64,000 nt of DNA from Bacteroidota bacterium (GTDB lineage: Bacteria; Bacteroidota; Bacteroidia; 2-12-FULL-35-15). Positions 7,057 to 53,218 of this stretch are shown in pieces. Where the stretch lies: positions 620,001 through 684,000 of the forward strand of contig JAOQAE010000006.1 of the NCBI GenBank assembly GCA_025963725.1, read 5' to 3'. Made by a program: the position numbers and the translations under genes. Position 1 is the stretch's first letter. Each line of letters starts with the position of its first letter. The notes below the pieces were generated by a model, which had not been told where the DNA came from, did not search any database, and saw only the letters and a list, made by a program, of their open reading frames with translations.

Positions 7057-7091
7057 TACCTCACCCCAGCCCTCTCCAAAGGAGAGGGAGC
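7056..7091. repeat. Palindromic repeat copy inside the sdh operon
   Basis: About 36 bp containing CCCTCTCC-AAA-GGAGAGGG, able to form a tight hairpin, within the sdhA-sdhB gap. A near-identical copy lies at 60265-60303, so this is a dispersed element rather than an sdh-specific signal. It could affect downstream expression of sdhB, but that is inference. Confidence 0.75.
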
Positions 7092-42183: not shown

Positions 42184-42209
42184 TTACAAATTCCGCCAAA
42201 ATCTTACAT
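42184..42209 (+). promoter_or_regulatory. Shared 26-bp upstream element, copy 1
   Basis: Begins TTACAAA and ends AAAATCTTACAT. It matches copy 2 (48023-48048) at 20 and copy 3 (50795-50820, minus) at 21 of 26 positions without gaps. 48 bp separate it from the TATGTTTG box. Confidence 0.6.
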
Positions 42210-42257
42210 CTGTGATCCCCGCAATGAAATGGGCTGGCATAGCGCCTCAAACCGGGA

Positions 42258-42265
42258 TATGTTTG
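42258..42265 (+). promoter_or_regulatory. -7 promoter box of the 42289 operon
   Basis: TATGTTTG, perfect TAnnTTTG, 23 bp before the ATG at 42289. Confidence 0.55.
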
Positions 42266-42288
42266 TTGCGGATTTAAAACTAACCCCC

Positions 42289-43560
42289 ATGAAAGCACCC
42301 TTAAACAAAATCATCATCAGCATCCTTGCCAGCTTCGCCTTATGCATGAATGCAAACGCCATCTCCGATGCCCTTAAAGTAAAGATCAGCAGCGGCAGCA
42401 CCACCGATGAAACCGTGATCCGCTTCCTGCCCACAGCAAGCACCGGCTTCGACGGCAGCTATGATGCTTACAAGCTGTTCAGCACCAGCCCAACCGTTCC
42501 GGCTATCTACACCCGCCTGGATTCGGTTACTGAATTGTCCATCAACGCATTGCCTTCTTTTACCGCACAGAACAATGTACCATTATATACCCATATCAAG
42601 GTTGCAGGCAACTATACCTTACAGTCGATAGAGCTGGGAACGGGATTCCAGCCCAATATCGAGATCACGCTGGAAGACCTTGAAACAGGCATGCTGTACA
42701 GCTTCAGGAACGGACAATCGGTTACCCTGCCGATGACTGTGAATACTGTGGCTTCCCATAACCGCTTTGTGGTGCATGTTTCCCCACCTATGACGGTGAC
42801 TGTTTCGGATGCCACCTGTCATGGATCGGGCACCGGGAGCGTGATCGTATCTAAACCGGGCAACAGCAGCTGGAACTGCCAGCTGAAAGATGCAGCCGGC
42901 ACTCTTGTGAATGCCGTTTCTGGGATCAATGAATCCGTTCAGATCGATAACCTGTTTGCAGGCAGCTACACTATTTATACGTCGAGCAGCAGCAGCCTGC
43001 CCGATTCGGCAGCGATCATGATCAGCGAGCCTGCCGCAGCCGCTGTGCTTTCCGCTTCTTTTACAACCAGCGGGGATACTGTTCTTCTGTCGCAGGCTAC
43101 TATCCAATTCACCAATACCAGCACCAGCGCTGTTTATTACAGCTGGGATTTCGGGGATGGCATCGGCACCGACAGTGTTTCGCCTTTTCACCAGTACACA
43201 TCCAGCGGCGTATTTACAGTAAGCCTTGTTGTGGCTGATTCGGCAGGCAACAGCACCTCTTACTCGAAGATCATTACCGTAACCAATGATCTTACCACCG
43301 GGATAGCCGATCTGGATCAGGCAGCTACCACACAGGCATACCAGTACGACGGCGCACTGCAGATCCGCCTTCGCTCCGTAAGTGCGGCAGGCATGACAGT
43401 GGAAGTATACAACAGCCTCGGGCAATCCATTGCAGCCTTTTCGGCAGGCAATTCCACAAGCCTTTCAGAATCGGTATACCTGCCTTCTTCCGGAACCTAC
43501 ATTGTACGTTCATTCATTAACAATAAAGTAAGCTCACAACAAATCTCTTTTATTAAATAA
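42289..43560 (+). CDS. Secreted PKD-domain protein with T9SS-type C-terminus
   Basis: 423 residues. Signal peptide MKAPLNKIIISILASFALCM with cleavage near NANA. The N-terminal 170 residues resemble a beta-rich domain of Bacteroidota surface proteins. Around residues 260-330 is a PKD domain (IQFTNTSTSAVYYSWDFGDG, FHQYTSSGVFTVSL). The last 75 residues (ALQIRLRSVSAAGMTVEVYN to VSSQQISFIK) form a T9SS sorting-like domain. The ATG at 42289 is chosen for the signal peptide; codons upstream cover the promoter. First gene of a three-gene run with 43577 and 44104. Confidence 0.85.
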   Translation: MKAPLNKIIISILASFALCMNANAISDALKVKISSGSTTDETVIRFLPTASTGFDGSYDAYKLFSTSPTVPAIYTRLDSVTELSINALPSFTAQNNVPLYTHIKVAGNYTLQSIELGTGFQPNIEITLEDLETGMLYSFRNGQSVTLPMTVNTVASHNRFVVHVSPPMTVTVSDATCHGSGTGSVIVSKPGNSSWNCQLKDAAGTLVNAVSGINESVQIDNLFAGSYTIYTSSSSSLPDSAAIMISEPAAAAVLSASFTTSGDTVLLSQATIQFTNTSTSAVYYSWDFGDGIGTDSVSPFHQYTSSGVFTVSLVVADSAGNSTSYSKIITVTNDLTTGIADLDQAATTQAYQYDGALQIRLRSVSAAGMTVEVYNSLGQSIAAFSAGNSTSLSESVYLPSSGTYIVRSFINNKVSSQQISFIK

Positions 43561-43576
43561 TATAACACTCATTCAA

Positions 43577-44086
43577 ATGAAGATCAAAACAACCACACTC
43601 GATAAGATCGCCGCACTGCTGTTCTTTGCCCTGCTCACTGTAGCAACGCTGTGCCTGGGCATTAACAACAAGGGCAGCCATACACTTTTCCTTCACAAAG
43701 AGTCCGCTCCGACCTCACCGTACGAGCTCATTTCCTTCAGCGCGCAGCAAAAGGACAATAACAAATACCTTAACTGGAGCATGACGAGCAGCCACGATAA
43801 TTTTTATTTCGCGCTGGAAAGATCCGTTGACGGGGAGCATTTCCTGGTGGTAGACCTAAAAAGAGGCGCTTCTTCACCCATCCAGGGACAGGAACTCCGC
43901 TATTCCTTTATCGACAGGGAACAGGTTACCGGCGAAAAGATCTATTACAGGCTCAGGCTGCTGGAGATCCAGGCAACGGACATGGCCAACAAAAAGGCGA
44001 TCCTCTCGGAAGAGGATATGTTCCAGAACAACCCGATGGCAGCCATCACTCTTACGAACAAGCAAACCACGATCAATAATAACTAA
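43577..44086 (+). CDS. Exported/anchored protein with a LERSxDG module
   Basis: 169 residues. A single hydrophobic segment near 12-29 (IAALLFFALLTVATLCLGI) acts as signal peptide or anchor. Residues about 50-140 form a fibronectin-like beta module, with NFYFALERSVDGEHFLVVDL being the usual phrase of T9SS-cargo linker domains in Bacteroidota. No sorting domain is present. It follows the PKD protein by 16 bp and precedes the next gene by 17 bp, so the three form one transcript. Function unknown. Confidence 0.75.
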   Translation: MKIKTTTLDKIAALLFFALLTVATLCLGINNKGSHTLFLHKESAPTSPYELISFSAQQKDNNKYLNWSMTSSHDNFYFALERSVDGEHFLVVDLKRGASSPIQGQELRYSFIDREQVTGEKIYYRLRLLEIQATDMANKKAILSEEDMFQNNPMAAITLTNKQTTINNN

Positions 44087-44103
44087 CATAAAAAAAAGAA
44101 ACC

Positions 44104-44670
44104 ATGAGATCCATTTTCCATAAAACAATTTTCGCAGCAGCAGTTCTTTTCAGCACCTTCAACCATAGCTTCGCCGGGAACGGCAGCAAGGCCGACACAT
44201 CGCAGGCCAAACCCTGCCTGGAAGTGCTGGGCATTGCAATGGACGCCAACAACAAGCCGATCGACGGTGTAGAGGTGAGGTTGTACAGGGAGAACGATGA
44301 ACAGGAATGGACAGAGATCACAAACGTGATGCACCATGAACACAGCTTCATATTTAAGCTCGAAGCGAATGAATATTATACGATCGAGGTATCGAAGCCG
44401 GGCTTTGTAACACGCTCGGTTGGCATTTCAACTGCGATCCCGAAAGATGTATCCCTTGACCAGATCTTCCGCTACGAATTTGAAGTGGAGCTTTTCAAAG
44501 AGAAGAAGAACATGAACGATTATTACCTGGATTTCCCGGTTGCGTTGATCAGCTATGATGCCGAAAGGGATGTTTTCGACAACAACTACGCCTATACACG
44601 CCATATCAAAACAATGATCGTACAACCGGTGGATGAAGCCAGCACAAAGGCAATGAAGACTGCAAGATAG
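44104..44670 (+). CDS. Exported carboxypeptidase-regulatory-like domain protein
   Basis: 188 residues. Signal peptide MRSIFHKTIFAAAVLF, cleavage near SFAGN. A CarboxypepD_reg-like beta sandwich follows (GIAMDANNKPIDGVEVRLYR, FKLEANEYYTIEVSKPGFVTR). The remaining 70 residues are polar and unassigned (FEVELFKEKKNMNDYYLDFP). Last gene of the 42289-44670 run; a hairpin terminator at 44713-44755 follows. Probably periplasmic or outer-membrane associated; no enzymatic motif. Confidence 0.8.
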   Translation: MRSIFHKTIFAAAVLFSTFNHSFAGNGSKADTSQAKPCLEVLGIAMDANNKPIDGVEVRLYRENDEQEWTEITNVMHHEHSFIFKLEANEYYTIEVSKPGFVTRSVGISTAIPKDVSLDQIFRYEFEVELFKEKKNMNDYYLDFPVALISYDAERDVFDNNYAYTRHIKTMIVQPVDEASTKAMKTAR

Positions 44671-44712
44671 AGGCTTGTCGCCTGCCCTGCGCTCAGCGGC
44701 AAAAAAAAATGT

Positions 44713-44755
44713 GGAAGCCCGCCGGTTTTACCGGTGAGTTTCCTCATTTTTGCAT
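44713..44755 (+). terminator. Hairpin terminator after the 42289-44670 genes
   Basis: GGAAGCCCGCCGG and CCGGTGAGTTTCC pair with two G-U pairs and one mismatch around TTTTA; followed by TCATTTTTG. Confidence 0.55.
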
Positions 44756-44814
44756 TTACTGATAAATTAGAGTAATTTAGACAACCAAATTGTTACTTTT
44801 TGTATCAAAAAAAC

Positions 44815-45234
44815 ATGAAAACCAAAGCTCCCAAGTGTAAAAATAAAAGCATTATGCTCATTGATGATAATGACATCGATAACTTCATCAACGAAAAGCT
44901 GATCAAGGCATATTACTTTGCTGAGAACGTATACGTTCATACCAGCACCAAAAGCGCCCTTGAATTTTTAAAGAACATCGAGGTGACCCTCCAGGAAATT
45001 CCTGAAGATCTTATTCCTTCACATTTACTCCTCGACATCAATATGCCTATCCTCGACGGATTTCATTTCCTGGATGAGTTCGAGAAGTTTGCACCTGAAC
45101 TGAAGAAGAAGATCAAGATCATTATGCTGACCACTTCCCTCAATCCAATGGATATTGAAAAGAGCAAGAACTACAAGCATGTGGTGAAATTCCTGCACAA
45201 GCCACTTACCGAATCGGAGCTCGCACAGCTTTAA
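44815..45234 (+). CDS. Receiver-only response regulator
   Basis: 139 residues. REC domain with IMLIDDNDIDNF, phosphoacceptor D74 in LLLDINMPILDG, the threonine in IIMLTTSLNP and the lysine in VKFLHKPLT. Clear paralogue of the regulator at 48134 (both share IDNF near the start and FLHKPL near the end). The ATG at 44815 is used; a TTG at 44800 would add five residues. Convergent with the PAS-kinase gene, so it may serve as its phospho-acceptor. Confidence 0.9.
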   Translation: MKTKAPKCKNKSIMLIDDNDIDNFINEKLIKAYYFAENVYVHTSTKSALEFLKNIEVTLQEIPEDLIPSHLLLDINMPILDGFHFLDEFEKFAPELKKKIKIIMLTTSLNPMDIEKSKNYKHVVKFLHKPLTESELAQL

Positions 45235-45283
45235 TTCCGGAATAACTGCATTCAAAAATCCACTCAAATTATTCCAACGAAGC

Positions 45284-45365
45284 ATTTCCCTCCTCCCAGG
45301 AGGGGCTAGGGGTGGTCAAACGAATCTTCATACCACTCCAACCCTCCTAAGAGGAGGGAGCTGAT
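45284..45365. repeat. GC-rich palindromic dispersed repeat
   Basis: CCCTCCTCCCAGGAGGGG and CCCTCCTAAGAGGAGGG hairpins flank a GGGGTGGT...ACCACTCC inverted pair, between the convergent 44815 and 45434 genes. Similar in kind to the repeats at 7056 and 60265. Confidence 0.65.
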
Positions 45366-45433
45366 CCTGCGAGCGATCTTAGCACAGGATGACGAACCGC
45401 AAAAGCACTCTCCCGGAAATCCACGTCAAGACC

Positions 45434-47971
45434 TTACACCTTCAGGTTCGGCAGCGTGATGTAAATGGAAGTGCCTTCCGATTCCTTGCTTGCGAGGGAG
45501 ATCTTCCCGCCCATTTTTTCAACGGCTGTCTTTACAATGTAGAGCCCAAGGCCTGTGCCGGAGGAGATGGTTGCCGCCCTGTAAAACATATCGAATACCT
45601 TTTCCTGCGAGTGGCCTTCGATCCCGATCCCGTTATCAATGATGTTGATCACCGCCGACTGCTCACTGCATTCCACGATCACAGAAATGACGGATTCAAC
45701 TGAGCCGCTCACCCGGCGGTATTTTATGGCATTATCGATCAGGTTCTGCATTACGGAATACAGCAGCTTGTCATCGTTATAAAAAGGAACATCAGCATTG
45801 AATTTCTTACGGACCCTGATCTTATCAAAATTGGGATAATGACTGAGGGAATCCATAATATCGTCCGTCATCTTAGCGAAGTCGACCTTATTCACCATCA
45901 GCTTCCCCTGGGAAACATTGGTGATGCTCACGAGGTCGATCAGCAGCTTGTCCATTTTATTCACGCTCTTGCCGATCATGTCGAAATAATTGGCGAGGCC
46001 GGGATTGTTAACTTCCGCTTCGCCTTTGGCCAGGTGCACCAGCCCCATCAGTGAAACCAGTGGTGCGCGCAGGTCGTGCGTGGCTTTGTACATGAACGTA
46101 TTGAGCTCGTTCACCTTGTACCTCAGCTGCCTTTCAGCTTTTTTCCGTGATGTGATGTCCCTTGCAAAAACGGCAACCCCTTCCACCCGTGCATTGATAA
46201 GAATTGGATTAAAGGACACATCATAATAATGATCCTCCATTTTGTACATGAGCTTCATCTCCATCGAAAAGTATTCTCCGGAAAGCGCCCTGATATAATG
46301 CCTCTGCCACTCGTCAAGCGAATGGCTGTCGGAAAGCTCCAATACGTTCATGGAAATGGAAATGGAAGAGCCGTAAAATTTGGAAAGCATAGCGCTGCAG
46401 GAGGCATTAAAATCCATTACGCTGAGGTCCCTGTTCACCGACCAGATGGGATCGCTGGAATTTTGCAGGAGCGCCAGCAGCTTTGCCTTTGAATCGGAGA
46501 TCTCCTTCTGCGCAAGCTTATGCTGTGTAATATCGGTGCCTATTCCGCAGATAGCATACACCTGCGAGCGGTCATCGTAAAGCGGAAACTTGGTGAATGA
46601 ATAATCTTTCATCACATTATTTACCGCGAGCTGCATCTCAAACTCCACTCCTTTGTTGGCTGAAACGATCTCATGGTCCCTCTGCCTTTCCTTGTGAAGC
46701 ATTTCCACCGGCAGGATCTCCTCCATCCGTTTTCCTTTGCTGACTTCCTCTGTGCTGTCAACTAATGCGAAATGCTTTTCAAACTGCCTGTTCACAAGCA
46801 GGTACTCTCCGTTGAGGCTGCGGATAAAAATAATATTTTGCGTATTGTCGAGAATGCCCTGCAGCATTTGCTGGTGCTCTTTCAGGGCATGCTCCGTTTT
46901 CACCCTTCCGGAGATGTCGCGGGTACAGGCGATGATGCTTTCAAACCTGCCGGTGGCATCCTTTACCACATTGGCAATGGACTCCACCCAAAAATATTCG
47001 CCGCTTTTTTTCCGGAAGCGGAAATTAACAGCATTGGTATCCGGCTTCCCGGAAAGCAGGTTCCGGTGCGCCTGCTGCACACGCGGCAGGTCTTCGGGAT
47101 GAATGTAATCATAGCCCGTGCCGCCGATGAGCTCCTGCGGATCGTACCCCGACATGTTCCTGCATGATTCGGAAATATAGGTATAGCTGCCATCCCGCGC
47201 ATGCAAGGTGATCACATCCATGATGTTATCGGCAAGGAAGCGGTATTTCTGCGAGCTTTTGATGAGGGCCTCTGTGCGCAGGCGTACTTTGTTTTCCAGC
47301 GTTTCATTCATCCTGTGCAGCTCTGCCTTCACCCTTTTCCGCTCGGTAAGGTCTTTTTCGAAACAATAATATACAATGGAGAGCACCACCAGGATGGAGA
47401 GCACCAGCAGCACAAAGGAGCTGATGGTCCTGTTGGCCGCTTCAATATTATTTTCAAAAGCTTGAAGGGCCTGCGTACGCTGCTCATCTTCAATTTCCTG
47501 CAGCGAGGCCATGATCCTGTTCCCGTATTCGGCAACCTTTCCATTCAGCAGGATCGCAAGCGCCTGGCTGTCGCTGTACTTTTGCCTCGTGAGGATGATC
47601 TCGTCATTTACTTTCCGCAGCAGCCTGAAACAGGTGCTGAACTCCTCCTCCTGCCTGCCGTATGCCCCTGTGTTGAGCTGCTGTTTGATCACATCCAGCA
47701 GCTTCTCCACCCTGTTCATGGAATAGTTATAGGAAGTGTAGGGCTTCTCCGAACCCGATAAAATATATTCGCGGCAGGAGGCTGTTGCCTTCATCAGCTG
47801 TTGCTGCACTTCGTCAACCGACTTAAGGATGACCTGCATCTGGCGGTGCCTGTTATTTTCATTGATCAGCGAGCGCATTCCGAAAAAAGCATTCACTGAA
47901 AACAGGATGATGATGAGGAGCGACAAAATAAATCCGGCCGCGACCTTTGATTCGATGGATAATTTTTTCAT
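45434..47971 (-). CDS. Membrane sensor histidine kinase with three PAS domains
   Basis: 845 residues. TM1 at about 12-32 and TM2 at about 185-205 enclose a helical CHASE3-like periplasmic domain. A HAMP-like/coiled segment (ERKRVKAELHRMNETLENKV) leads to three PAS/PAC units: about 240-360 (FLADNIMDVITLHARDGSYT), 365-485 (ILDNTQNIIFIRSLNGEYLL) and 495-610 (NSSDPIWSVNRDLSVMDFNA). The HisKA phospho-site is THDLRAPLVSLMG (about H632), followed by HATPase boxes NLIDNAIKYR, IIDNGIGIEG and SGTGLGLYIVK. Start at the ATG 47971. Its -7 box is TATATTTG (minus, 47993-48000). Flanked by two receiver-only regulators, its likely partners. Confidence 0.93.
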   Translation of the reverse strand: MKKLSIESKVAAGFILSLLIIILFSVNAFFGMRSLINENNRHRQMQVILKSVDEVQQQLMKATASCREYILSGSEKPYTSYNYSMNRVEKLLDVIKQQLNTGAYGRQEEEFSTCFRLLRKVNDEIILTRQKYSDSQALAILLNGKVAEYGNRIMASLQEIEDEQRTQALQAFENNIEAANRTISSFVLLVLSILVVLSIVYYCFEKDLTERKRVKAELHRMNETLENKVRLRTEALIKSSQKYRFLADNIMDVITLHARDGSYTYISESCRNMSGYDPQELIGGTGYDYIHPEDLPRVQQAHRNLLSGKPDTNAVNFRFRKKSGEYFWVESIANVVKDATGRFESIIACTRDISGRVKTEHALKEHQQMLQGILDNTQNIIFIRSLNGEYLLVNRQFEKHFALVDSTEEVSKGKRMEEILPVEMLHKERQRDHEIVSANKGVEFEMQLAVNNVMKDYSFTKFPLYDDRSQVYAICGIGTDITQHKLAQKEISDSKAKLLALLQNSSDPIWSVNRDLSVMDFNASCSAMLSKFYGSSISISMNVLELSDSHSLDEWQRHYIRALSGEYFSMEMKLMYKMEDHYYDVSFNPILINARVEGVAVFARDITSRKKAERQLRYKVNELNTFMYKATHDLRAPLVSLMGLVHLAKGEAEVNNPGLANYFDMIGKSVNKMDKLLIDLVSITNVSQGKLMVNKVDFAKMTDDIMDSLSHYPNFDKIRVRKKFNADVPFYNDDKLLYSVMQNLIDNAIKYRRVSGSVESVISVIVECSEQSAVINIIDNGIGIEGHSQEKVFDMFYRAATISSGTGLGLYIVKTAVEKMGGKISLASKESEGTSIYITLPNLKV

Positions 47972-47992
47972 GGGTTCTGTTATTTGACGGAT

Positions 47993-48000
47993 CAAATATA
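47993..48000 (-). promoter_or_regulatory. -7 promoter box of the PAS-kinase gene
   Basis: TATATTTG on the minus strand, perfect TAnnTTTG, 21 bp before the ATG at 47971. The shared 26-bp element (48023-48048) lies directly upstream and could serve both directions. Confidence 0.5.
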
Positions 48001-48022
48001 GCAGCGTGCATTTTCACCGCAA

Positions 48023-48048
48023 TTACAAAATTCCGTAAAACCTTACAT
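48023..48048 (+). promoter_or_regulatory. Shared 26-bp upstream element, copy 2
   Basis: Begins TTACAAAATTCC and ends CCTTACAT; 49 bp precede the TATCTTTG box at 48098-48105. See copies at 42184-42209 and 50795-50820. Confidence 0.6.
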
Positions 48049-48097
48049 TGGAAACGAATTGCGGGAGGATGGCAAAAATATACAGCATAGGCGCCTG

Positions 48098-48105
48098 TAT
48101 CTTTG
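48098..48105 (+). promoter_or_regulatory. -7 promoter box of the 48134 regulator gene
   Basis: TATCTTTG, perfect TAnnTTTG, 28 bp before the ATG at 48134. Confidence 0.55.
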
Positions 48106-48133
48106 CGGCACACAAAACATAAAACTATTCAAC

Positions 48134-48583
48134 ATGACTCCTCTCAATATAAGAAACACACATCCATTGGTAATGCTTGTGGATGACAGCTCCATCGACA
48201 ATTTTGTAAACAAGAAGGTGATCAGCCGCTATGAATTTGCCACAACAGTGCTTGAATTCACAAAGGCAAGAGACGCGCTGAAATACCTGCTGCAGCTGAA
48301 TGCCGATACGGAAGCCACTATTCCCGCGGTGATGTTCCTCGACCTTGACATGCCGGAGATCAACGGGTTTGAATTCCTGGATGCATTTTCCCTGCTTTCG
48401 GAAAAGGTCAGGAGAAACATGAAGATCGTTATTCTCACCAGCTCCATTAATCCTGCCGATATGGAATTCTGCTCCAAAAACAAGTCGGTGCTTACCTTCC
48501 TGCACAAACCATTAATGAAAAATAATTTAGAATCAATTGATGCGATGTTGTCAGAAAAAAGCTTTAAATTAGTAAAGTATTAG
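48134..48583 (+). CDS. Receiver-only response regulator
   Basis: 149 residues. REC domain with LVMLVDDSSIDNF, phosphoacceptor D70 in VMFLDLDMPEING, the switch position in IVILTSSINP and lysine in LTFLHKPLM. Paralogue of the 44815 protein; the two flank the PAS kinase. Divergent from the kinase across a 162-bp region that holds the shared 26-bp element. Start at 48134; upstream codons cover the promoter. Confidence 0.9.
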   Translation: MTPLNIRNTHPLVMLVDDSSIDNFVNKKVISRYEFATTVLEFTKARDALKYLLQLNADTEATIPAVMFLDLDMPEINGFEFLDAFSLLSEKVRRNMKIVILTSSINPADMEFCSKNKSVLTFLHKPLMKNNLESIDAMLSEKSFKLVKY

Positions 48584-48610
48584 CCGGGGAATGCTCCGCT
48601 CCGTCCGAAA

Positions 48611-48630
48611 AAGGTAGTACTCACTACCTT
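48611..48630 (+). promoter_or_regulatory. Inverted repeat before the 48651 gene
   Basis: AAGGTAGT and ACTACCTT form a perfect 8-bp inverted repeat with a 4-bp centre between the 48134 stop and the 48651 start. It may be an operator or a weak terminator; the sequence alone does not decide. Confidence 0.45.
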
Positions 48631-48650
48631 ACAATTATTTGTCCGCATTT

Positions 48651-50081
48651 ATGAAGATAGAAAAGATCGTAGCCCAGCTAAATGAAAAGGATTATTCCAC
48701 ACTTTGTGAAAAATTCACCCAGAGTAAAGCCGATAAATACCTGATGCTTTTAAATCATTACCGGAACAATAAATCTTCCGACAGTGATATTCAAAAAGAG
48801 CTGGATATAAAGTCGGCGGCATTCTATACATTAAAGTCGAGGCTGTACGATAAGATCCAGGAATACCTTTATAAATCCACGCAGGACACACGGGTGGAGC
48901 TTCTGCAGAATGTTGCCAACATCGAGCACCTGATCTACAAGGCGCCGAAGGAAACTGCCATCGGGCTGATCCGCAAGATGGAAGCCGAGCTGCTGAAGAA
49001 TGACATGCCGAATGAGCTGATCATTGTATACAAAGCCCTGAAGAAGCTGCATGTGTACTCCCCGAAATATTACGATTACCAGCAGCTGTACAATAAATTT
49101 GTGGCCTACAACCTGGCGCAGGACAAAGCGGAAGAGGCATTATCCTCTTTCTGCAAAACGCTCACGATGCTGCACATTACACGCGACCCGAAATATTTCG
49201 ACATACTTGTACTGTATAAGCGGGAAATGCAGAACCTCTGCAGGATCCACCAGTCGCACCGCTTAACGGCACATAAGAACATACTCAACATTCATTTTGC
49301 CCTCTTCTGCCCTGTGCCCGAAGAGATGACAAACGATGCCACGATCGAGGATATGCTCCGCGAAACCTACGAGATCATTGATAACAACCCGGAGGACAGC
49401 ACGTATATCCATCTCGTGTACGCGATCCATTTTCTTTCTTTTGAATATTACAACCAGCTGAAGCTGTATAAGAACGCCGCCGTTTATTTTGAAAAGGTGG
49501 ACGACGACAACGGCTCGATCCTGCTGTACAATCACACCTGCTTCGCGCTGCATTTCCTTGTTTCAAAGATCCGCTGGCATTATGTGAACAAAACAACGGA
49601 GATGCTGAATGAAAAGGAAGAGCTGATCTATGAGCCGGGGCCGGACAACATCACCGAGCACATCATCTTCAAACAATACAAAGCCTTCGTATATTTTTAT
49701 AAGGGAAAGATAGCGGAAGCAACACAAACGCTGAACAAGCTGATCAACGATGTAAGCTTTAAGGACATCCTGCATGCCGAGATCGAAGTGAAGCTCTTCC
49801 AGGTATTTTTATTCCTGCTGTCGGAAAAATCGGACCAGGCCGAGATCACCCTGCGGAGCATCAGCAGGAAAATTGCCGATGAGGACAATGAGAGCAAATA
49901 TCATGTGGCACTGTTATATGTTAAGCTTTTCAAAACGGCGCTTGCCAACAAAACTGCCGGCAAGCTTGCTAAGCTCACCGAGACCTGGAAGCTTATTACC
50001 GTTAGCAACAACGGGCCCGACAGCATCCTTTCAAACCTTCATCTCAGCGACGAGCATCTGCTGAGGCTGTCAAAGCTCTGA
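48651..50081 (+). CDS. Helical-repeat protein with HTH-like N-terminus, unknown
   Basis: 476 residues, cytoplasmic. Residues about 30-72 (DSDIQKELDIKSAAFYTLKS) look like a helix-turn-helix: a short helix, a turn at ELDI, then a recognition-like helix. The rest is an alpha-solenoid of TPR-like helices (ENELIIVYKALKKL-type pairs, FYKGKIAEATQTLNKLIND). ATG at 48651; a TTG at 48639 is in frame. Its stop abuts the stop of the convergent outer-membrane gene. The arrangement resembles HTH-plus-solenoid regulators, and the signalling context fits, but the DNA-binding role is inference. Confidence 0.75.
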   Translation: MKIEKIVAQLNEKDYSTLCEKFTQSKADKYLMLLNHYRNNKSSDSDIQKELDIKSAAFYTLKSRLYDKIQEYLYKSTQDTRVELLQNVANIEHLIYKAPKETAIGLIRKMEAELLKNDMPNELIIVYKALKKLHVYSPKYYDYQQLYNKFVAYNLAQDKAEEALSSFCKTLTMLHITRDPKYFDILVLYKREMQNLCRIHQSHRLTAHKNILNIHFALFCPVPEEMTNDATIEDMLRETYEIIDNNPEDSTYIHLVYAIHFLSFEYYNQLKLYKNAAVYFEKVDDDNGSILLYNHTCFALHFLVSKIRWHYVNKTTEMLNEKEELIYEPGPDNITEHIIFKQYKAFVYFYKGKIAEATQTLNKLINDVSFKDILHAEIEVKLFQVFLFLLSEKSDQAEITLRSISRKIADEDNESKYHVALLYVKLFKTALANKTAGKLAKLTETWKLITVSNNGPDSILSNLHLSDEHLLRLSKL

Positions 50082-50720
50082 TCAGAAATCCGACCTGCCC
50101 TGCCTGCCAAATTGCCAGGAGAGGCCCGTACGCACGAGCAATCCGAGCCCTTTGCTGTTATAGAACAATCCTTCCGGCGAGTTAAAAACGCTGTATCCTC
50201 CCAATGCAACTCCATTGAACCATTTCAGGTTTTTGCCGAGCACAATGCGCACCCCAAAACCCGCATAGGCATCGAGGCTTTTCAGCCGCACCTGTGAAAG
50301 GTCGACTGACAGCTCGGAATTGCTCCGCTGCTCTTCCTCGCATACCGCTTTTCCAAGAGTAGCGCGGTGATAATACGTGAGGTTCGCAAATGAATACAGC
50401 TCCAGCCAGTCGATGTAACAACCGGCATTCCGGTCGAGCAACGTGTACTCGTAATTGAGCTGGAAGCCCGAGCTGCTGAAGCTGTGCTTCTGGAAAGCGA
50501 CGCCAAAGGCTATTGTGCTGTTTCCGCGTTTGTAAAACAGCGAGGGACATAAAATAGTACCGAAGCCATTTGCCGAAACACTTGCGGCGCCCCTGATACC
50601 CACATACGCCAGCGGGCGGTTACGCGCCTGCAGGCCGCTGCCGAGCAGGAAGAAAAGAAGAAGAGGAATAATAAGAAAAGATGATCTTTTAAGGGTTGAA
50701 ACAGGAGTAATGTTTTTCAT
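50082..50720 (-). CDS. Small outer-membrane beta-barrel-like protein
   Basis: 212 residues. Signal peptide (SSFLIIPLLLFFLLGSGLQA), then alternating strands typical of an eight-strand barrel (LAYVGIRGAASVSANGFG, STIAFGVAFQKHSF, LNYEYTLLD, AYAGFGVRIVLG), ending near GLSWQFG. Start at the ATG 50720. It lies downstream of the RprXY-like genes on the same strand but has its own promoter with the shared 26-bp element (50795-50820) and a near-consensus -7 box (TTTCTTTG, 50739-50746). Confidence 0.8.
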   Translation of the reverse strand: MKNITPVSTLKRSSFLIIPLLLFFLLGSGLQARNRPLAYVGIRGAASVSANGFGTILCPSLFYKRGNSTIAFGVAFQKHSFSSSGFQLNYEYTLLDRNAGCYIDWLELYSFANLTYYHRATLGKAVCEEEQRSNSELSVDLSQVRLKSLDAYAGFGVRIVLGKNLKWFNGVALGGYSVFNSPEGLFYNSKGLGLLVRTGLSWQFGRQGRSDF

Positions 50721-50794
50721 ATCGTTTTTTTTACGACACAAAGAAACACTTCCATTACGCCATTGCACTTACAATTGAAATGCGAACATCGCAC

Positions 50795-50820
50795 ATGTAA
50801 GATTTTGGCTGTTTTTACAA
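50795..50820 (-). promoter_or_regulatory. Shared 26-bp upstream element, copy 3
   Basis: Read on the minus strand it begins TTGTAAAAA and ends GCCAAAATCTTACAT; the last 15 bases equal those of copy 1. 48 bp separate it from TTTCTTTG (50739-50746) of the 50720 gene. Confidence 0.6.
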
Positions 50821-50824
50821 AAAA

Positions 50825-51526
50825 TTATTTTCCCATCAGCAACTTGAATCCTTTTCCATGCACATTGATGATCTCCACGGAAGGATCGTCCTTCAGGTAT
50901 TTGCGCAGCTTTGCAATGTATACATCCATGCTTCGCCCGTTAAAATAATTATCATCGTTCCAGATCGCCTTCAGTGCAAAGTTCCTGTCGAGAATATCAT
51001 TCGCATGCAGGCAGAGCAGTTTCAGCAGGTCGGCTTCCTTGGTGGTAAGCTTTTGCTGGCTGCCTTTAATATCAAGGGTCTGGTGCTGGTAATCAAATTT
51101 ATAGCTGCCGATCTTAAATTCGGCCTGGCTGTCGTTCGCGTTCACCTTGATCTCGGTGCGGCGAAGGATCGCCTTGATGCGCGCAAGCAGCTCTTCCATG
51201 CTGAAAGGCTTGGTGATGTAATCGTCGGCGCCCGCATTAAAGCCTTCGATCGTATCTTCCTTCATCGACTTGGCGGTAAGGAACACCACCGGCACATTGG
51301 CGTCGACCGCGCGGATCTCCTTTGCCAGCGTGTAGCCATCCTTCACAGGCATCATTACATCGAGGATACAGATGTTGAACTTTTCCTTTGAGAAAAGGTC
51401 GAAGCCCTGCTTGCCGTTCACAGCCAGCGAAGTGCTGTATCCTTTTGCCTCGAGGTATTCCCTTAAGAGCGTTCCCAGGTTGGCGTCGTCCTCTACCAAC
51501 AGGATCTTTAATTTTTCTGCCTGCAT
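50825..51526 (-). CDS. OmpR-family response regulator (RprY-like)
   Basis: 233 residues. REC domain with LLVEDDANLG, D56 in CILDVMMPVKDG, FLTAKS and ITKPFSMEELLARI. The winged-helix Trans_reg_C domain follows, with LTTKEADLLKLLCLHAND and RSMDVYIAKLRKYLKDDPSVEI. It binds DNA as a dimer on direct repeats. The start is 3 bp after the kinase stop, so the two form one operon with the kinase first. The TTAACA repeats at 53179-53218 are candidate binding sites. Confidence 0.93.
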   Translation of the reverse strand: MQAEKLKILLVEDDANLGTLLREYLEAKGYSTSLAVNGKQGFDLFSKEKFNICILDVMMPVKDGYTLAKEIRAVDANVPVVFLTAKSMKEDTIEGFNAGADDYITKPFSMEELLARIKAILRRTEIKVNANDSQAEFKIGSYKFDYQHQTLDIKGSQQKLTTKEADLLKLLCLHANDILDRNFALKAIWNDDNYFNGRSMDVYIAKLRKYLKDDPSVEIINVHGKGFKLLMGK

Positions 51527-51529
51527 ATT

Positions 51530-53137
51530 TTAGTGTGTGTTTGTTTCTGAATGATATGGTAAATAAACGGTAAACCTGCTGCCTTTCCCCGGCTCGCTGG
51601 CTACGCTGATAGAGCCGCCGTGCTTCTCTACCACTGCCTTCACATAGCTTAAGCCGAGGCCGAAGCCTTTAACATTGTGAATATTTCCTGTAGGCACGCG
51701 GTACATGGTATCAAAGATACGCTTTTGATTTTCCTTGCTGATGCCGATGCCGTTATCCTGCACCGAAATGAAGATCCCCTCATTATCGCTGCTGGTCATG
51801 ATCCTGATCTTCGGATGGTCGTTGGAATATTTCAGCGCATTGTCGATCAGGTTAAAGATGATGTTGGTGATGTGGATGCGGTCGCCGCGCAGCACAGGAA
51901 TAGCCGCTTTCAGGTCCCTGCTGATCTCTCCTTCCTTGTTCTCCACCTGCAGCTTGATGTTAATGATCGTTTGCTCGATGAGGCTGTGAATATCGATGTC
52001 CTGCATCTTCAGCTTCAGCTGCCCTTTATCAAGGATCGCTGTCTGCAGGATATTCTCCACCAGCAGGCTCAGGCGCTTGTTCTCATCGCCGATCATTTTC
52101 ACGTAAGTATTTACACGCTCCGGCGATTTCTCAATGCTTACATCGTTCAGCACTTCGCAGGCAAGGGAAATGGTGGAGATGGGCGTTTTGAACTCATGCG
52201 TCATATTGCTGATGAAATCGTTCTTGATCTCCGATAATTTTTTTTGCTTTAAGATGGTAGAGATGGTGTAGTAAAAAGAGAAGATGAGCACGAGCATGAA
52301 GGTAAGCGACACAAGGAGCATCACCCACATCGATCCCAGCAGGTAGCGTTTCTGCGAGGGAAAATAAACGGAAAGGTATTGCGGCTTGATGAAGATATTT
52401 TCAGGCGAAAGATTCACCTTGTACGGCGAGAGGTAGAGCTTCACGCTCTTTTCGGTAAGCTTGCTGGAATCGGGCGGAAGCACCTGGGAAGCAAGCACCC
52501 CGAACTCATATTCGGTTGTTACGCCCTTTTCGAGCAGCTCCGCCTTCAGCACCGAATCGAGGATCTTAGGGTCGTACTTATGGTCGAAATCATTGTAGAT
52601 GTTCACGCTCACGAGCTCATCAAAAATATCGTTCACCATCGCATCCTGGTGCGAGAACCAATTCTTCTTCAGGTCGAGTGAATCGGTAAGGGAAGGCTGC
52701 AGCGGCCCATCGCTTTGCACCCGCGCCCTCAGCTCCGGCGAAGTGCTGTCGCTCGCATAGCTTTTCTCCCGCGATCTTTTGGTGACCACGCCATTGGAAT
52801 CGGCGCTGATCTCTTCATACACCTTTACCTTCACTTTGTTCTTCGGGAAAGAATAGGACTGCTTATCATCGAGCGAGATCCCGGGTTGTGCAGAATCTGC
52901 AGGCGAATAATAGCGCATGCCCTGCTTCCTGAAATTGAATTTCTTCGTAAGGCGCGCAGCGGCCATCTGCTTTTCCATCCGCGCCACCACATTGGTGAGC
53001 GCCGCGTTCACATTCTGCTCAAAACGCTCCCTTCCTATCTCCACGGAATTATTGATCCAGTATACCTGGATCGTGATCAGCCCGATCAGCGCCAGGCTGG
53101 CCATAATGGTTATAATTCCTGTGTTTCCTTTATGCAT
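51530..53137 (-). CDS. Membrane sensor histidine kinase (RprX-like)
   Basis: 535 residues. TM1 at about 8-28, a 235-residue periplasmic sensor region, TM2 at about 266-292. HisKA: ISNMTHEFKTPISTISLA with H314. HATPase: NLIDNALKYSND, VQDNGIGISKEN, GFGLGLSYVKAVVEKHGG. Start at the ATG 53137 (MHKGNTGIITIMAS); upstream codons run into the operator region. Partner of the regulator 3 bp downstream. Divergent from the secreted protein at 53310, which is a likely target. Confidence 0.93.
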   Translation of the reverse strand: MHKGNTGIITIMASLALIGLITIQVYWINNSVEIGRERFEQNVNAALTNVVARMEKQMAAARLTKKFNFRKQGMRYYSPADSAQPGISLDDKQSYSFPKNKVKVKVYEEISADSNGVVTKRSREKSYASDSTSPELRARVQSDGPLQPSLTDSLDLKKNWFSHQDAMVNDIFDELVSVNIYNDFDHKYDPKILDSVLKAELLEKGVTTEYEFGVLASQVLPPDSSKLTEKSVKLYLSPYKVNLSPENIFIKPQYLSVYFPSQKRYLLGSMWVMLLVSLTFMLVLIFSFYYTISTILKQKKLSEIKNDFISNMTHEFKTPISTISLACEVLNDVSIEKSPERVNTYVKMIGDENKRLSLLVENILQTAILDKGQLKLKMQDIDIHSLIEQTIINIKLQVENKEGEISRDLKAAIPVLRGDRIHITNIIFNLIDNALKYSNDHPKIRIMTSSDNEGIFISVQDNGIGISKENQKRIFDTMYRVPTGNIHNVKGFGLGLSYVKAVVEKHGGSISVASEPGKGSRFTVYLPYHSETNTH

Positions 53138-53178
53138 CACAAACAAAAATAAGTCATTCCACCCGACTGCAAAACAGC

Positions 53179-53218
53179 TTAACATATTTTAACAGCGATT
53201 AACAGCGCATTAACAGCG
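53179..53218. promoter_or_regulatory. Four TTAACA-type direct repeats (OmpR-family operator)
   Basis: TTAACATAT at 53179 and TTAACAGCG at 53189, 53199 and 53210: steps of 10, 10 and 11 bp, one DNA turn each. OmpR/PhoB-type regulators bind such same-face repeats; the B. subtilis PhoP box also uses TTAACA units. The array starts 42 bp upstream of the kinase ATG and ends 18 bp before the TATGTTTG box of the 53310 gene. Confidence 0.65.

Follow-up and report, generated by a model that had tools for sequence, protein, structure and literature searches.

A conserved operator at a fixed distance from the promoter box in Bacteroidia and TF480, its candidate regulator

Introduction

The −7 box of Bacteroidetes sigma-A promoters has the form TAnnTTTG, as given in PMC7366714. 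The same box is met in a 64,000-nt stretch of a Bacteroidota genome of 4.79 Mb (contig JAOQAE010000006.1, positions 620,001 to 684,000, that is C6:620001-684000 of the source genome G000), which is called the window below and in which three copies of a 26-bp element stand 48 or 49 bp before such boxes, around the gene of a 476-aa protein, TF480. The element is a widely conserved control site in Bacteroidia, placed 48 bp before the promoter box, and sequence comparisons indicate that TF480 is very probably its regulator. These promoters appear to depart from the described type in having T-N-GG at −28 to −25 from the box and no clear TTTG motif at −33.

The closest described protein is NprR of Bacillus thuringiensis, an RRNPP member with a helix-turn-helix (HTH) and TPR architecture, which is reported to work on DNA in tetrameric form and to bind the stand-alone receiver Spo0F (PMC4970707). 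TF480 is likewise predicted to join an HTH-like domain to a TPR-like part, and the top-ranking structural matches of its model include NprR and Rap chains. The DNA-binding RRNPP members, including NprR, have an XRE-type N-terminal HTH, whereas the N-terminus of TF480 appears to resemble sigma region 4 and NarL. A second difference is that NprR acts on Spo0F instead of DNA, whereas here the receiver is proposed to work together with DNA binding by TF480.

In its geometry, the locus recalls class I activation of the CRP type, in which the operator lies at a fixed distance near −60 and can be used by divergent promoters, but the protein, the motif and the sigma-A promoter type are different here. 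Like the genes of OmpR and NarL two-component systems, kinase and receiver genes share an operator, with the difference that receiver and proposed DNA-binding output would reside in two distinct proteins. In Bacteroidetes, receivers that stand alone and lack an output domain are widespread, and few of their outputs have been described. Among the literature matches listed, none gave an account of the element or of TF480, most subscription journals lying outside the scope of the search.

Fixed spacing of the element and its conservation

The preliminary description of the window, made from its letters alone, had proposed a common activator site in front of three promoters. Re-reading the window bore out the three copies, at 42184-42209 and 48023-48048 on the + strand and at 50795-50820 on the − strand, with 20/26 identity between copies 1 and 2 and 21/26 between copies 1 and 3 (17/26 between copies 2 and 3). 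The spacings were likewise borne out by measurement, the −7 boxes TATGTTTG, TATCTTTG and TTTCTTTG beginning 48, 49 and 48 bp beyond the end of copies 1, 2 and 3, respectively. Besides copy 1, the window holds two sites with at least 20/26 matches to it, the next best having 18/26; when the window was resampled 60 times under an order-1 Markov model, one site at the level of 20/26 or more arose in all.

The same distance recurs in relatives. With the pattern WWWNCTTACAT-N38-58-TWNNTTTG in 36 genomes of the genus, 33 of the 150 matches listed lie at 48 bp (p 1.5e-13) and each of the other 20 spacings has 2 to 13 (mean 5.85), the matches listed reaching to genome G040 and the later genomes falling outside the count. 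A stricter element-plus-box pattern gave 20 matches in 9 of the 36 genomes and none in the reversed control. In G009, G033 and G035, the genes orthologous to those of the PKD protein, the receiver and the outer-membrane protein have the element 48 bp before a box matching at 7/8 or 8/8 positions, and the CarboxypepD_reg-like orthologue has it at 48 bp in loci L104 and L123 and at 47 bp in L130. Further away, a PKD homologue in a genome of a different family (G023, 36% identical) also has the element, and at L147, where TF480 is only 33% identical, two nearby sites have boxes of 7/8 and 6/8 at 48 bp. We are practically certain that the element is a real, conserved operator with fixed geometry. 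In L095 (G035), the PKD orthologue is preceded by tandem element copies at 7083 and 7158, 75 bp apart.

The whole-genome scan went largely as the preliminary description had predicted, with four strong sites 48-49 bp before −7 boxes and outside genes as read, instead of matches mostly in coding sequence or at random distances. The scan used R1, a 90-position box-plus-element profile in which the 48-49 bp spacing is built in and which was trained on 26 promoters, including copies 1 and 3 and the site C5:79156; copy 2 was not in the training set. The four strong sites are the three copies and C5:79156 (E 4.2e-16 to 7.5e-6), the next among the 11 matches listed being C7:712765 with an E of 0.03. 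The exact pattern TTACAA-N8-AAAANCTTACAT occurs four times in the genome, as copies 1 and 2, C5:79156 and C6:387516; a box follows at 48-49 bp for copies 1 and 2 and at 48 bp for C5:79156, and a box at 48 bp was looked for and is not present at C6:387516. Allowing up to two mismatches raises the number to seven sites, four with a box and a fifth, C7:712765, boxed on the other strand. The C5 site precedes a 598-aa open reading frame (ORF) that by eye looks secreted and repetitive. The regulon in the source genome is small and mostly local, as three of the four strong sites lie in one cluster.

Looser patterns were less informative. The box-free element with up to two mismatches gave 142 matches against 147 reversed in 31 genomes, i.e. 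not above control, which implies that much of the signal comes from the distance to the box; this pattern was useful for its exact matches and for the sites subsequently checked for a box. A broad first pattern was of no use (62 matches against 83 in the reversed control), and the exact CTTACAT-N33-63-TAnnTTTG gave 8 matches against 4 reversed in the source genome; two of the eight, copies 1 and 2, were the only ones that seemed genuine. The motif without a box at 48 bp was seen in L070 (C6:387516 and C6:387337), L072, L080-L082 and L084-L088. L070 and L072 (G018) match the 26-mer well, with the form TTACAATTTTG-N-AAAATCTTACAT, and have no box at 48 bp on either strand; L070 carries two copies 179 bp apart, and the similar boxless site is thus seen in two species (G000 and G018). 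Elsewhere in the source genome, the near-identical stretches L027 and L028 (C5:45810 and C5:45920), 110 bp apart, each contain CAAAAAAGCCTTACATTTCTGTAAGGCTT, which is hairpin-like and stands beside apparent tRNA ends.

The cluster in the window is arranged as follows.

42184-42209, + strand: operator copy 1 (left arm), with a weak right inner half, CTGTGAT, at 42210-42216
42258-42265, + strand: −7 box TATGTTTG, 48 bp beyond copy 1
42289-43560, + strand: secreted PKD-domain protein with a type IX secretion system (T9SS) sorting tail (Pfam PKD_4, 8.8e-13; TIGR04183, 1.4e-5, 25 bits, cutoff 23)
44104-44670, + strand: CarboxypepD_reg-like cluster protein, under the Pfam cut-off
44815-45234, + strand: stand-alone receiver of the REC1 type, the receiver type commonest beside TF480 in other families
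45434-47971, − strand: CHASE3-PAS histidine kinase (Pfam), divergent from the receiver gene, ATG start read from the sequence
47993-48000, − strand: −7 box TATATTTG ahead of the histidine kinase, on the opposite strand to copy 2 and separated by 48 bp from the operator centre
48023-48048, + strand: operator copy 2, possibly for two divergent promoters
48098-48105, + strand: −7 box TATCTTTG ahead of the receiver and TF480, 49 bp beyond copy 2
48134-48583, + strand: stand-alone receiver REC2 (Pfam Response_reg, 3.7e-11)
48651-50081, + strand: TF480, 476-aa HTH-TPR-like protein without a named family, candidate regulator
50082-50720, − strand: 212-aa protein without a family match, outer-membrane only by the label of the preliminary description
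50739-50746, − strand: −7 box TTTCTTTG, 48 bp beyond copy 3
50795-50820, − strand: operator copy 3 (left arm)
50825-51526, − strand: RprY-type OmpR response regulator (NCBIfam NF051850, 361.9 bits, cutoff 370)
51530-53185, − strand: histidine kinase adjoining the RprY-type gene, RprX by position

Copy 3 starts 4 bp past the end of the rprY-type gene (50795-51526 taken together), an order kept in G009, G033 and G035, and its placement provides the gene that follows rprY with an element-bearing promoter of its own.

Anatomy of the operator and its possible two-way use

Twenty-nine promoters, all selected at 48 bp and including the 26 that trained R1, such that box and core conservation are partly built in, share TTACAAAWW-N5-AAAATCTTACAT-CTGT-N-A-T, followed by T-N-GG at −28 to −25 from the box and then by TAnCTTTG. 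The −7 box has T in 28 and A in 17 of these promoters (T in 12), then T in 29, T in 29, T in 27 and G in 27, the sites being partly picked by their box. In the −33 region, T is found in 22/29, G in 24/29 and G in 19/29 at −28, −26 and −25 from the box start. The conserved arm of the site is TTACAAA-N7-AAAATCTTACAT, within which TTACAW recurs at a distance of 20 bp. In other families, the inner part is palindromic (CTTACAT-ATGTAAG or CTTACAC-GTGTAAG); 25 of the 26 arm bases are mirrored at one L179 site, and the inner seven are all mirrored in L179, L188, L197 and L202. From the sequences we read the 26-mer as one arm of an inverted repeat, the inner end of which is the symmetry centre, 48 bp from the box. 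The poor symmetry of the window copies speaks against this, since a comparison of the right arm with the left arm in mirror image gives no more than 9, 13 and 10 agreeing positions of 26, with a random mean of 6.5. The 26-bp element of the preliminary description is real, but it is probably only one arm of an inverted repeat, and the motif continues into CTGT-N-A-T.

At copy 2, the opposite strand has TATATTTG 48 bp from the centre, with the kinase start codon another 21 bp on. In orthologous copies 2, the box at 48 bp on the kinase side matches at 8/8 positions in L076, as it does in the window, at 7/8 in both L095 and L101, where the contig stops short of the neighbouring gene on that side, and 6/8 in L103; in L094, which has no kinase gene between the receivers, the best box on that side is 5/8, at 47 bp. 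The site C7:712765, which has a counterpart in G018, presents its arm in right-hand orientation 48 bp before TATATTTG, with a kinase gene and a receiver gene downstream in the source genome. Across the genus, 7 of 29 right-arm matches have the 48-bp spacing (p 3.4e-4); one of these is in G002, a genome without TF480, and of the six at spacing 50, four look like a single orthologous stretch. L071 and L074 had already been inspected by eye before this other-strand box test. Copy 2 may thus, on its sequence, serve two divergent promoters, one for the kinase and one for the receiver and TF480.

The geometry also bears on the sign of the regulation. The element could be an operator for repression, and palindromes upstream of the regulator's own gene, as described below, are typical of repressors too. 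The operator centre, however, keeps one fixed distance, 48 bp on the upstream side of the −7 box, which places it outside the core site of the polymerase, and the conserved T-N-GG at −28 to −25 departs from TTTG. Repression is therefore unlikely, although it survives better than the other alternatives, and the promoter sequences argue with good confidence for activation. The common activator site of the preliminary description is supported by the genome sites and by the genus peak at 48 bp, with the corrections that the regulon is small and local and that copy 2 is maybe used in both directions.

Association of the element with TF480

TF480 is found in 89 of 395 sampled Bacteroidia genomes. 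The strict element occurs in 28 of these 89 and in 3 of the 306 others (Fisher 4.5e-17; four matches in the reversed control). When the comparison was confined to ten mixed families, TF480 was present in 19 of the 20 genomes that carry the element, against 10.0 expected, and none of 200,000 permutations reached this number; in this test a negative genome is one outside the 89 positives, families were assigned by hand, and the mixed families f5 and f53, which lack the element, were excluded. Of the 36 genomes of the genus, 13 have TF480 and 9 the strict element, seven having both (p 0.005); of the near-complete ones, 6 of the 10 that have TF480 carry the element, compared with 0 of the 16 that lack it (p 9e-4). 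The box-free palindrome TCTTACAYRTGTAAGA is found in 8 of the 395 genomes, seven of them with TF480 (p 1.6e-4; one genome in the reversed control). In three other families (G160, G166 and G282), the palindrome stands about 140-210 bp before the TF480 gene itself. Finally, 40 regions, nearly all around TF480, gave 27 elements against 0 reversed at the strictest threshold and 35 against 2 and 47 against 8 at laxer ones, in a test that was not blind: some genomes were picked for a known element, the regions L177, L196 and L202 were selected or lengthened so that they contain one, and TF480 is not part of the region L202.

Several observations weigh against TF480. The strict pattern is missing from 61 of the 89 genomes with TF480, and in G043, a genome with TF480, the region searched yielded no element. 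Conversely, elements are present in G016 (80% complete) and G018 (64%), in which TF480 was not found, the sole explanation offered being that these genomes are incomplete. Moreover, other genes of the cluster co-occur with TF480, so that the association alone does not single it out. With these points counted, the comparisons still make TF480 very likely the regulator of the element, and the explanation as a whole, in which the element is the operator of a receiver-switched transcription activator, TF480, is probable.

Two other binding proteins were considered. A third regulator, whose gene lies elsewhere but is inherited along with the cluster, could bind the element while TF480 has another role, given that the association is correlative and that receivers and further genes of the cluster are passed on together with TF480. 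This is improbable in view of the palindromes 140-210 bp before TF480 in three other families, as in autoregulation, and because, of the cluster genes compared, only TF480 and the RprY-type gene encode a DNA-binding domain or one like it. RprY, the adjoining OmpR-type response regulator, might instead bind the element together with its neighbouring kinase: it lies directly behind copy 3, at the same place in G009, G033 and G035, and the arm contains TTACAW twice, 20 bp apart, in keeping with the direct repeats that OmpR-type regulators often bind. RprY is nevertheless in 33/36 genomes of the genus and 26/26 near-complete ones, against only 9/36 and 6/26 for the strict element, and in G031, G040, G015 and G036 it lies on another contig, yet the hub promoters keep their elements, with TF480 kept and RprY not nearby. 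RprY is disfavoured, since the distribution of the element does not follow it and its position is not kept in those four genomes, and we consider this still less probable than a third regulator. Chance resemblance or a repeat relic, suggested by only three copies in the window, an AT-rich motif and a boxless pattern not above control across genomes, has a negligible probability in the face of the spacing peak, the reversed controls of the strict pattern, the conserved orthologous promoters and the resampling.

TF480 and its predicted structure

TF480 gave nothing above cut-off against Pfam and NCBIfam and nothing usable against PDB sequences; its likeness to NprR comes without a usable sequence match to a solved structure. 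The most conserved stretch in eight sequences is AAxYTLKSRLxDKxQ, and across 48 diverse N-termini the residues that never vary, M1 aside, are L61, R64 and L65. The AlphaFold2 model is all helical, with a mean pLDDT of 83.6, and the model of the N-terminus has five helices (pLDDT 86.7). The best structural matches of the N-terminus are YlxM-type, sigma region 4 and NarL-type chains with Z up to 7.6, in the suggestive range only. The full-length model matches Rap chains with Z 13.4-16.2 over 260-297 residues, the best being tied with separase and likewise only suggestive, and NprR chains with Z 14.3-14.5, near separase. The models suggest that TF480 has a sigma4/NarL-like HTH N-terminus on a TPR-like superhelix.

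The structural searches also hold points to the contrary. The Z scores of 7.6 and 16.2 are in or near the range that the tool deems unspecific for helical folds, the N-terminal match list also has unrelated chains such as Ebola VP30, and Foldseek gave no significant E-value (best 0.77 for the N-terminus and 0.0059 for the full model). The full-length Foldseek list consists mostly of generic TPR and other solenoids. The Pfam scans gave no XRE family, and a weak or missing match does not exclude one. In two loci the frame is interrupted: L126 (G032) has one in-frame TAA, and L145, from a Sphingobacteriales metagenome-assembled genome, has two ORFs.

Receivers and the proposed circuit

A stand-alone receiver gene lies within 1 kb of TF480 in 43 of 62 loci, often overlapping it or abutting it tail to tail, some of these loci being one place under two names (L102/L144 at least). 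The other 19 loci have no receiver within 1 kb, which weighs against a receiver as partner. A receiver is considered a likely input by analogy with NprR, whose HTH-TPR architecture goes together with binding of the receiver Spo0F; on this ground we lean slightly towards the stand-alone receiver being the input to TF480.

In the proposed mechanism, TF480 would bind its site as a dimer or a dimer of dimers, would contact the sigma-A RNA polymerase from about −60, a class I-like position, and would thereby drive promoters with weak −33 regions. TF480 would regulate its own gene, and copy 2 would switch on the divergent kinase and receiver-TF480 genes together. The phosphorylated stand-alone receiver (REC1 or REC2) would dock on the TPR part and thus switch TF480, such that kinase, receiver and DNA-binding output would be separate proteins. 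The targets here would be the T9SS-tailed PKD protein, the predicted outer-membrane protein, a predicted secreted protein at the C5 site and the signalling genes themselves. We regard it as an evenly balanced question whether TF480 and the receivers form a split response regulator, spread over about a fifth of the Bacteroidia genomes sampled, in which the phospho-receiver, docked on a Rap-like TPR superhelix, lets the sigma4/NarL-like HTH bind an inverted-repeat operator serving one or two promoters at 48 bp.

Significance

The analysis provides a concrete operator and, as its candidate DNA-binding protein, TF480, which belongs to no named family and is encoded in 89 of the 395 sampled Bacteroidia genomes. 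A circuit of kinase, receiver and regulator appears to control its own genes, and its small set of proposed targets consists of surface and signalling genes. If the split regulator is true, it would join an RRNPP-like architecture to two-component signalling outside Gram-positives and would define a family not named in Pfam or NCBIfam.

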